Source: Saccharomycopsis phalli
Lineage: Eukaryota > Ascomycota > Saccharomycetes > Ascoideales > Saccharomycopsidaceae
Assembly: GCA_020342235.1 (NCBI GenBank)
Contig: CP073213.1
Coordinates: forward strand, 1,590,501 to 1,654,500
Length of the DNA: 64,000 nt
Reading direction: 5' to 3'
Under the pieces are notes generated by a model. That model was given only the letters and a program-made list of their open reading frames with translations. It was not told where the DNA came from and ran no database searches. Position numbers and translations under genes: made by a program. This document shows, piece by piece, positions 12,287 to 63,998 of this stretch; the first letter of the stretch is position 1, and each line of letters begins with the position of its first letter.

Positions 12287-13327
<1,041 letters not shown>

Positions 13328-13521: not shown

Positions 13522-14208
13522 TTAGTCTGTTGGAGACTCCTCATCCTCTAATTGTTTAGCCAAGGTTTGAATTTTGTCACTCACCCGAATCCACGTGGCT
13601 TTGTTGATTTCGATCGACGATTTAATTGTATCAATTTGCGACTCAAGAATGGCATTCATACTGGTAAGGAACGTAAGAGTGTAGTCCATCTTAAAATTGA
13701 ACGTATATCCATCACCAATTTTACGGAAACTCCGGTCTGGCAATGCATCCTCCATCCGCTTAATGAATTCCACATCTGAATCAAACAATTCTTCAAGCTC
13801 TTGCCGGCTCAACGCCAAGTCGCGGGTATTCGACAAGCCGCGCATAGCACTTTCAATACTGCTTATATTTCTGCCACTAGCATCGAGTTTTGAAATGGCC
13901 TGCTTAATTTGCTCTTTCTGCTCCTTCACCGACTGGTCATGCTGCTCTTTTAGTCTCGGGATACGATCATAAATATCATTGTACTCAGTAACCAGACTCT
14001 TCAATATTATAGTGTTTGCCTTGAGGAATTCCGTCAATAGCAAATACGCCTTGAGAAGCCTTGTCCTCAATTCCTGAATATTCTCAAGTTTAAATTTCTC
14101 CTTTATATTTTCTGGTAGACTAGCCAATTCAAAGTCCCGCCTTAGGTAGCCAACCAATTGCTGCAATTCTGATATAATGGTGAAATAGTTTTCAACCGCC
14201 TTGGGCAT
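13522..14208 (-). CDS. Coiled-coil protein of unknown function (228 aa)
   Basis: I do not recognise this protein. It is almost entirely helical and charged with heptad-like stretches (for example LKEQHDQSVKEQKEQIKQAI near the middle), has no membrane segment or signal peptide, and ends in an acidic DEESPTD tail. Such a build is common in subunits of kinetochore, mediator or trafficking complexes, but nothing visible decides between them. The chosen start is the ATG at 14206-14208 (MPKAVENYF); an upstream in-frame ATG at 14260-14262 would add 18 residues of hydrophobic, less plausible sequence. It is divergent from PNG1, with about 185 bp between starts. Confidence 0.7.
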   Translation of the reverse strand: MPKAVENYFTIISELQQLVGYLRRDFELASLPENIKEKFKLENIQELRTRLLKAYLLLTEFLKANTIILKSLVTEYNDIYDRIPRLKEQHDQSVKEQKEQIKQAISKLDASGRNISSIESAMRGLSNTRDLALSRQELEELFDSDVEFIKRMEDALPDRSFRKIGDGYTFNFKMDYTLTFLTSMNAILESQIDTIKSSIEINKATWIRVSDKIQTLAKQLEDEESPTD

Positions 14209-14392
14209 TATATATGTTCTCTCCAACAATACTGTCATTATTAGCATCACTCTCAAGGCCATCCCAGATACTCACTCTCATTGTCGCGGTCATTGTTTCC
14301 ACGCCGATAATTTGTCATTGGGTAAAGCTGTGGATGAAAAACGTGTAAACTGCCCCAGGCCCTTGGCGCAATAACAGACTTGGACTCATATC

Positions 14393-15472
14393 ATGAACAA
14401 ACTGAACGACAAAGACCTTCAACAAGGCATAAAAAAAGTATCCAGTATCTTGGTGGAATCATATTCTAAACGATTGTCCGAGCATATTTCAAAGCTTAAC
14501 CAAGGATTATCTCCCGAGATATTAAAGTCTTCGTTCGCCTCAACTTTGACCAGCCTAACAGCGTCTGTGTTGAAATATGAGAACCAATTATTACAAAATG
14601 AGGCACTAGCCGTGATCCCAGTAGAAGAGTTTCAGGCTATTGCAGAGTCTTTGGTGGAAGAGCAAGATAGAAATCCCACCGAGGTAACATACAGTTACCA
14701 GGACTTTCTAGTGAAGGAAGCACTTCGGTGGTTCAAGGAAGACTTTTTCCGCTGGGTCAATAAGGATGATTGTCCATTTTGCGGGAATAGCGACCAGGAC
14801 AAATTACAGCTAGTAGCAAATGATAGAGGCAATGCTCAGGAACAGTTTGAAGGCCAAGCATCCAATGTTGAGATATACAAATGCCTTAAATGTAACAAGA
14901 CCCACCGATTTCCCCGTTATGATAACCCAGGAACTTTGCTTTATACGCGAAAAGGTCGCTGTGGCGAATTTGCCAATTGCTTTTATCTTGTCTTAAGAGC
15001 ATTGAAGGTTAAGGTACGATACATATGGAACAAGGAGGACCATGTGTGGACAGAATACTACTCAGACAATTTTAAAAAATGGATTCACTTGGACAGCTGC
15101 GAAAACTGTTACAATGAACCGTTGTTATACTGCAATAACTGGTGCAAGTCCATGAGCTATGTGTTTGGAATTAATCCTTCTGGCGTAGTGGATCTATCCA
15201 AGAAGTACATTGATCCAAACAGCAATAGGCAGCTCCCTAGAACTTTGGCAAGCGAAGAGTCTCTAGCTAAAGTGATTCGCTACCTTGACATTCAAAGTAA
15301 AGCTAAGATTAGTGACTCTAAGGAATTGTACAAACAATTAATTATAGACAGAGACGAAAGACAGTACTTGAATGACCCAGAAAAATTATATGACAACAAG
15401 TTGACTAGCACAAAAGGAAGAATCAGTGGGTCCAATGAATGGAAGAAGTTTAGAGGTGAAGGTGGTGCTTAG
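14393..15472 (+). CDS. PNG1: Peptide:N-glycanase
   Basis: Cytosolic deglycosylating amidase that strips N-glycans from misfolded glycoproteins during ER-associated degradation, working with the proteasome-linked Rad23. The 359-residue product has the transglutaminase-fold triad Cys190 (GRCGEFANCF), His217 (EDHVWTEYY) and Asp234 (HLDSCENCYNEPL), and the structural zinc site formed by CPFC (127-130) and CLKC (164-167). Length and order match S. cerevisiae Png1 (363). The first 60 residues are a variable helical N-terminus. In S. cerevisiae PNG1 sits next to EEB1, SEC62 and MGR2, all present in this window. The U5 snRNA promoter begins about 30 bp after the stop. Confidence 0.97.
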   Translation: MNKLNDKDLQQGIKKVSSILVESYSKRLSEHISKLNQGLSPEILKSSFASTLTSLTASVLKYENQLLQNEALAVIPVEEFQAIAESLVEEQDRNPTEVTYSYQDFLVKEALRWFKEDFFRWVNKDDCPFCGNSDQDKLQLVANDRGNAQEQFEGQASNVEIYKCLKCNKTHRFPRYDNPGTLLYTRKGRCGEFANCFYLVLRALKVKVRYIWNKEDHVWTEYYSDNFKKWIHLDSCENCYNEPLLYCNNWCKSMSYVFGINPSGVVDLSKKYIDPNSNRQLPRTLASEESLAKVIRYLDIQSKAKISDSKELYKQLIIDRDERQYLNDPEKLYDNKLTSTKGRISGSNEWKKFRGEGGA

Positions 15473-15503
15473 AATAGTTAGTTCAGGGTAACTCCACGAT
15501 TAG

Positions 15504-15510
15504 TATAAAA
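15504..15510 (+). promoter_or_regulatory. TATA box of the U5 snRNA gene
   Basis: TATAAAA lies about 35 bp upstream of the expected 5' end of the U5 RNA and 32 bp after the PNG1 stop codon, a standard distance for a yeast Pol II snRNA promoter. Confidence 0.7.
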
Positions 15511-15539
15511 GAGCCATTGGCATTGTAAATTTTTTCTTC

Positions 15540-15655
15540 ACCAAGTCAGAAGATCAATCTCATAATCGAACATGACCCTTGCCTTTTACCAGTGTCATCC
15601 GGGGATTGTCTTTATTTCAAATGGCTATTGATTATTTTTTGGAACCCATTTTTCT
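15540..15655 (+). ncRNA. SNR7: U5 spliceosomal snRNA
   Basis: Core snRNA of the spliceosome that aligns exon ends through its invariant loop I. The loop GCCTTTTAC is present at 15581-15589, closed by ATGACCCT (15572-15579) pairing with AGTGTCAT (15591-15598) with one mismatch. Below an internal loop, AGA/CAATC (15551-15559) pairs with GATTG/TCT (15604-15611). The flanks of the loop stem (CGAAC before, CCGGG after) match S. cerevisiae U5 as I remember it, as does AGATCAAT near the 5' end. The Sm site ATTTTTTGG is at 15634-15642. Both ends are estimates: the 5' end from TATA spacing, the 3' end from the Sm site; a longer 3' form could reach about 15690. The RNA is shorter than the 180-214 nt of S. 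cerevisiae. Confidence 0.93.
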
Positions 15656-16064
15656 TTCAGTTGAAGGAACTCTTTTTTTTTTTTTTGTGAACTTGATGAG
15701 GCCATTGTGTTTATGAAATGAAAGACAGAGTATTTATTCAGCCTTGAAACCTAAGCAAATTAAATAAATGTGTTTTATAAACTTTGTAAGTACTCTGGTG
15801 AGACAATTTTAAAGTACAAGTGAATAGGCAACGCGACTACAGATTGAAATATATCCTCGGTCAACGTCTTTCAGCGAAATAGAAATTCTAATATATATGA
15901 CAGAATAAATCGAACCAAAGCCATAGTTTTAGACTCGTAAGAAACGTGGTATTTTATGGATACTTTCGCGTCTATGACGGTGTCACTAACCAGCTTTGGA
16001 AAACAATTTAGTAGTCTTTATATCTGTATCCGCTAACTTTATAAGCCAAAGGACAATACAAGAA
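15656..16064. other. Gene-free spacer after U5
   Basis: This holds the U5 3' flank, a 14-15 nt T-run at about 15672-15685 and the promoter of the next gene. No further reading frame or RNA gene is seen. Confidence 0.5.
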
Positions 16065-16646
16065 ATGTCGGGAACACCACCAATCAACCGGGTTATAAAT
16101 GTGGATTCCAACTCAAAAAGAATAATCAATGACCCCATGGGAAATTCCAGCAATGGAAACTATAACAGTTCAATAGATCGGCCTGGCCCCGTGCTACCCA
16201 TTGATTCTTACAAGCAAATAAAGCAGAAATCCAACAAGTCATTTAAAAACATTGAAAATAACCTCAAACAGATCCAGCTGAACTACGATCAATATGCAAA
16301 TGTGGAGACAGGCAAGGTTGAACTGACTGATTATTATGAGAATGAAGCACTAATAAAGATACGCCAAGTCCACAAGAATGAAAAGACAATCAAGCTACAG
16401 TTTAATAGATTGATCACTAATGATTTTCGGAATTTCCAAAAGAAATTTTTAGCGTTTAGCAAGTTTATTAGTCAAAATTTCGGAATAGTGGACAAGAAAG
16501 AGGGCGATGCTCACTCTAAAAACAATACAAATAAGGTTACTAAAAAAATTAATGATATACAAAAGTTTGCCGAAAAAATAGATTGCCAGATAAGAATGTT
16601 GGAGAAAACAAAGAAAATTATAGAAAGTAACAAATCCATTAAATAG
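16065..16646 (+). CDS. Coiled-coil protein of unknown function (193 aa)
   Basis: I do not recognise this protein. The first ATG of the frame is at 16065 (MSGTPPINRV); the frame is open upstream but lacks an ATG. The N-terminal 55 residues are polar and Asn/Ser-rich, followed by a mainly helical, Lys/Asn-rich region with a likely coiled coil (about 65-190) ending in lysines. No membrane segment. It is convergent with the next gene, only 26 bp between stop codons. Size and composition fit a small subunit of a trafficking or kinetochore complex, but that is a guess. Confidence 0.6.
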   Translation: MSGTPPINRVINVDSNSKRIINDPMGNSSNGNYNSSIDRPGPVLPIDSYKQIKQKSNKSFKNIENNLKQIQLNYDQYANVETGKVELTDYYENEALIKIRQVHKNEKTIKLQFNRLITNDFRNFQKKFLAFSKFISQNFGIVDKKEGDAHSKNNTNKVTKKINDIQKFAEKIDCQIRMLEKTKKIIESNKSIK

Positions 16647-63900: not shown

Positions 63901-63998
63901 GTTACAGTGGCCGAGTGGTTAAGGCGATGCCCTGCTATAGTATGGCCTAAGTTAGGCATTGGGTTTTACCTGCGCAGGTTCGAATCCTGTCTGTGACG
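63901..63998 (+). tRNA. tS(GCU): tRNA-Ser (anticodon GCU) with 16-nt intron
   Basis: Decodes AGC and AGU. The acceptor stem pairs 63901-63907 (GTTACAG) with 63991-63997 (CTGTGAC), followed by discriminator G at 63998, the serine identity base. The D-stem is GCC/GGC, the anticodon stem ATGCC (63927-63931) with GGCAT (63955-63959), and the anticodon GCT is at 63934-63936. A 16-nt intron (63938-63953) lies one base 3' of the anticodon, the canonical position. The long variable arm (GGT/ACC stem) is typical of tRNA-Ser, and the T-arm is GCAGG TTCGAAT CCTGT. It is not the CAG-anticodon serine tRNA that defines CTG-clade yeasts. The window ends two bases later. Confidence 0.97.

Follow-up and report, generated by a model that had tools for sequence, protein, structure and literature searches.

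U5 snRNAs of metazoa and fission yeast are approximately 116-120 nt in length. That of Saccharomyces cerevisiae, at 214 and approximately 179 nt, is distinguished by an extra stem-loop beside stem-loop 1 and by an enlarged lower region. The two U5 forms of this yeast, U5L and U5S, are described in the available extract of PMC4579134, and the extract of PMC4830896 describes U5 as part of the tri-snRNP, with Prp8 associated with its stem-loop 1 and with loop I as the element that aligns the exons. No length figure for any yeast U5 was found in the available parts of the literature on yeast U5.

The DNA analysed here is a 64,000-nucleotide stretch (the window) of the genome of Saccharomycopsis phalluae, a yeast described as the cause of yellow rot of an edible mushroom (PMC8468998, available text). 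The gap that follows PNG1 in this window, from the stop codon ending at 15472 to the next open reading frame at 16065, almost certainly holds the U5 snRNA gene of this species, the sole one found. This conclusion is carried by a family match, its occurrence as a single copy, the core structure, the Sm site and a promoter layout that is common to U1, U2 and U4. The features of the region are as follows.

14393-15472, + strand: PNG1 (peptide:N-glycanase), the upstream neighbour on the same strand (Pfam Transglut_core; PDB 1x3w, 209 bits)
15504-15511, + strand: TATAAAAG, TATA box of U5, whose predicted 5' end lies 39 nt further on
15543-15669, + strand: predicted U5 snRNA including the 3' stem-loop (RF00020 match; a shorter form would end at about 15651)
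15549-15613, + strand: stem I plus the part that it encloses
15549-15553 and 15555-15561 with 15602-15613, + strand: stem I, 12 bp with U15554 bulged (pair probabilities 0.85-1.00)
15562-15601, + strand: U5-specific core (internal loop 1 and stem-loop 1)
15572-15576 with 15594-15598, + strand: stem of stem-loop 1, SL1 (pair probability 0.90-0.98)
15581-15589, + strand: loop I, GCCTTTTAC (DNA), GCCUUUUAC, identical to the Rfam consensus; predicted exon-aligning loop
15634-15642, + strand: Sm site, ATTTTTTGG / AUUUUUUGG, downstream of stem I
15652-15669, + strand: 3' stem-loop, 7 bp, with an AGUU tetraloop at 15659-15662 (pair probabilities 0.66-0.98)
15673-15686, + strand: run of 14 T, three bases after the 3' stem-loop

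When the whole window was searched with cmscan, the U5 family RF00020 matched the + strand at 15543-15665 with 58.7 bits (gathering score, 40), and the alignment extended over all 117 model positions (1-117) with six inserted bases. The E-value of this match, with both strands of the window compared to all 4227 Rfam families, was 3.4e-7. A search of the genome (14,148,124 bases), which scored the best 46 of 1025 first-look candidates, returned a single U5 match with an E-value of 1.8e-8. These two values, the second belonging to a lone match, argue that the similarity is not due to chance. No second copy of 15500-15700 was found by a DNA search of the genome, although a strongly diverged one is still conceivable because the covariance-model search scored only those best 46 candidates. 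An exact pattern for the U5 core gave 0 matches in prokaryote genome contigs. The initial annotation had proposed a U5 snRNA gene here and named a covariance-model search as the check; the full-length match above the gathering score bears the proposal out, and the loop I, closing stem, lower stem (stem I, 12 bp), Sm site and TATA box that it listed are all present. The only other Rfam match in 15450-16070 up to E = 1, to MIR158 at 15670-15730, fell far under its own gathering score (18.5 bits vs 67) and was taken as a chance match. The fold free energy of 15543-15676 is ordinary (z = 0.46, with 132 of 200 shuffles equal or better), so the case for U5 rests on the family model and not on stability.

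In the predicted RNA loop I is closed by SL1 and internal loop 1, whose AUCGAA and UCCG agree with the Rfam consensus, is closed by stem I, with an Sm site beyond; the Sm sites of U1 and U4 in the same genome read AAUUUUUGA and AAUUUUUGG. A candidate outermost stem of 5 bp (15544-15548/15622-15626) is weak, with a pair probability of 0.11-0.12; on the 3' side only 8 nt separate it from stem I, a difference from S. cerevisiae U5. The 3' stem-loop at 15652-15669 is probably part of the gene. Loop I, internal loop 1, stem I, the Sm site and a 3' stem-loop are all shared with RF00020. The locus differs from that model in the bulged U of stem I, in a 3' stem-loop lying a few bases further on (that of the model ends at 15665) and in six consensus pairs that the alignment marks as non-standard, two of them in stem I, one in stem-loop 1 and three in the 3' stem-loop of the model. 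With S. cerevisiae U5 (SNR7) it has in common loop I, SL1, internal loop 1 and the Sm site AUUUUUUGG, whereas internal loop 1 here follows directly after stem I without the additional stem-loop of that yeast. Size and overall architecture are like those of metazoan and fission yeast U5, the base-level comparison being with the Rfam consensus.

The promoter was compared with those of U1, U2, U4 and U6 in this genome, with the 5' ends of all five genes taken from the Rfam alignments. Within the 120 nt upstream of U5 there is exactly one TATAWA, at -39, and the same is true of U1 (-40), U2 (-43) and U4 (-41), while the 120 nt upstream of U6 contain none. At the rate seen in the window between open reading frames (101 hits on both strands of 14,683 bases outside the 29 listed frames) the chance of TATAWA in a given 7-nt band is approximately 0.024 per gene, a figure that serves as a guide and not a test since the band was picked after the data had been seen. 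A TATA box at correct spacing had been claimed, and the positions in U1, U2 and U4 are in agreement with this. The layout is that of an RNA polymerase II snRNA-type promoter, and its spacing supports a predicted U5 start near 15543 and putative transcription by polymerase II. It was also observed that U1 (locus L005) has CCCCCAATCACCCGGATGT twice, as identical copies, upstream of its TATA box, and that U4 carries TTTACCCG and U5 the reverse form GGGTAA slightly before their respective TATA boxes. These sequences, spotted by eye, are possibly a shared activator site.

The same layout bears on whether the locus, if a real U5 gene, might be transcribed by RNA polymerase III and terminated by the run of 14 T, a reading favoured by the start of this run three bases past the 3' stem-loop. 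T runs of 6 and 5 are expected to halt polymerase III early. Such runs, of 6 T at 15635-15640 and of 5 T at 15649-15653, both precede the longer one and for this reason transcription by polymerase III is very unlikely; in addition the promoter resembles those of U1, U2 and U4 and is unlike that of U6.

Two further explanations would deny that a working U5 gene is present. The score of 58.7 bits is modest beside those of U2 (124.4), U4 (98.6) and U6 (88.6) in the same genome, and this, together with the six non-standard consensus pairs and the weak outermost stem, could be taken as the mark of a decayed pseudogene whose working counterpart lies elsewhere or is absent from the assembly. This is, however, the only U5 match found among the best 46 of 1025 candidates of the genome search, and loop I, the Sm site and a promoter like those of U1, U2 and U4 are intact, which makes decay extremely improbable. 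The predicted RNA also begins 71 nt past the end of the PNG1 stop codon and on the same strand, as would a structure in the PNG1 3' UTR that resembled U5 by chance. Set against this are the E-value obtained over all Rfam families and a TATA box of its own at the spacing of snRNA genes, with 31 bases between it and the stop codon, and the likelihood of such a coincidence is vanishingly small.

The 5' end of this U5 was set from the start of the model together with the TATA spacing, and the 3' end is a prediction. The RNA would be approximately 109 nt long if it ended before the 3' stem-loop and 127-130 nt with the stem-loop included. The initial annotation had given about 115 nt, which is a fair figure but just one possible length, and had ended its interval at 15655, a position that falls within the 3' stem-loop. 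Its description of the RNA as closer to the metazoan size is fair for a range of 109-130 nt. The RNA is also, as that annotation had it, markedly shorter than either form of S. cerevisiae U5 (214 and approximately 179 nt), because the copy fits the 117-position consensus with only six inserted bases. Its small size reflects two features of S. cerevisiae U5 that are lacking here, the extra stem-loop and the enlarged lower region.

As a model for its action, RNA polymerase II would begin near 15543, approximately 39 nt downstream of the TATA box, and the expressed and presumably capped transcript would be bound at 15634-15642 by the Sm ring. With stem-loop 1 held by Prp8, loop I would align the two exons in splicing, the function to be expected of a U5. 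For the 3' end, the described properties of S. cerevisiae Rnt1 offer a comparison: this enzyme recognises an AGNN tetraloop and cuts 14 nt before and 16 nt after it (PMC13183374, available text). The AGUU at 15659-15662 agrees with AGNN, but a stem of 7 bp is too short for the 14/16-nt cleavage geometry, and an ungapped scan of 15643-16000 found no AGNN- or UGNN-capped stem longer than 7 bp. One RNase III domain was detected in the genome.

U2, U4, U6 and U1 were each matched once in the genome, the first three above threshold and U1 below, and a full spliceosome is therefore to be expected. U2 spans 197 nt on a 192-position model and U4 143 nt on a 138-position model. U1 (154 nt) aligns end to end with the general U1 model and has an Sm-like site at position 117, but it is on a weaker footing because it lies below the gathering scores of both U1 models (57.0 vs 69.5 and 59 vs 80). 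The 3' ends of U1, U2 and U4 are model-derived predictions. Since small size is also seen in U2 and U4, and less securely in U1, the compact U5 is probably the ancestral state. The evolution of yeast snRNAs is said to have been treated by Mitrovich and Guthrie in the RNA journal in 2007. Together with U2, U4, U6 and the below-threshold U1, the U5 described here makes up a predicted snRNA set from the CUG-Ser2 clade, and because the clade of S. cerevisiae is its sister, these compact RNAs help to show when the large S. cerevisiae snRNAs grew. A two-part proposal would go further: that compact ancestral snRNAs have been kept in the CUG-Ser2 clade, so that enlargement of U1, U2 and U5 postdates the split of the clades, and that the U5 3' stem-loop with its AGUU may itself dock the single RNase III domain detected, the mature 3' end and the processing signal being one element and not separated into a downstream hairpin. 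Taken jointly these two parts make an unlikely proposal.

The U5 gene is a member of a known RNA family and does not change the understanding of U5 function; its use lies mainly in locating an essential RNA gene in a yeast that has received little study and in adding one data point on the growth of yeast splicing RNAs. To call it hidden, as had been done, was overstated, since the genome paper gives 12 predicted snRNAs (1015 bp), unnamed in its available text (PMC8468998), and the U5 gene may therefore already be annotated. The available text of PMC5106798 describes a search for the snRNAs of S. fibuligera with Infernal and Rfam. No mention of U5 was found in the available portions of either paper, and the word 'snRNA' is absent from the main text of the S. 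schoenii genome paper.

Assignment to the CUG-Ser2 clade was considered from the tRNA genes. According to the available text of PMC5951914, descent from a tRNA-Ser(GCU) gene marks this clade, sister to that of S. cerevisiae. An exact tRNA motif occurs at 14 places in the genome, which by our reading are one tRNA-Leu(UAG), six tRNA-Ser(GCU), four tRNA-Ser(CGA) and three tRNA-Ser(CAG). The three tRNA-Ser(CAG)-like genes (in L008, L013 and L017, loci of about 3 kb) each have a short intron; ARAGORN instead reads all three as Thr and, among the CGA genes, takes L015 for a stop tRNA. Over the acceptor, D and T arms L008 is identical at 48 of 51 positions to each of the six GCU genes and at 43 of 51 to each of the four CGA genes. 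The tRNA-Ser(CAG)-like genes, judged by their sequences, fit with membership of the CUG-Ser2 clade, and if they are read in this way CTG should encode serine; 24 open reading frames of the window contain 1491 Leu-box codons, of which 82 are CTG. GAPDH has a single CTG codon, and the residue aligned with it is Ser in 3pym but Pro in 7u4s. A narrow, exact pattern for tRNA-Leu with a CAG or TAG anticodon matched one gene only in the genome, with TAG, while tRNA-Leu(CAG) has been kept in four of five Ser2 species (PMC5951914, available text). If the absence of tRNA-Leu(CAG) is true, the species has completed the code change; this is offered as a lead only.

Among the neighbours of PNG1 and U5, the open reading frames at 16065-16646 and 13522-14262 had no Pfam match at E 0.001. 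The GAPDH-like gene at 12287-13315, which reaches 511 and 483 bits with its best relatives of solved structure and has a few extra residues near its N-terminus, is possibly a diverged second GAPDH. At the right edge of the window lies a tRNA-Ser(GCU) gene with an intron (63901-63998), which was missed by ARAGORN in bacterial mode and was found, in L007, when introns were allowed.
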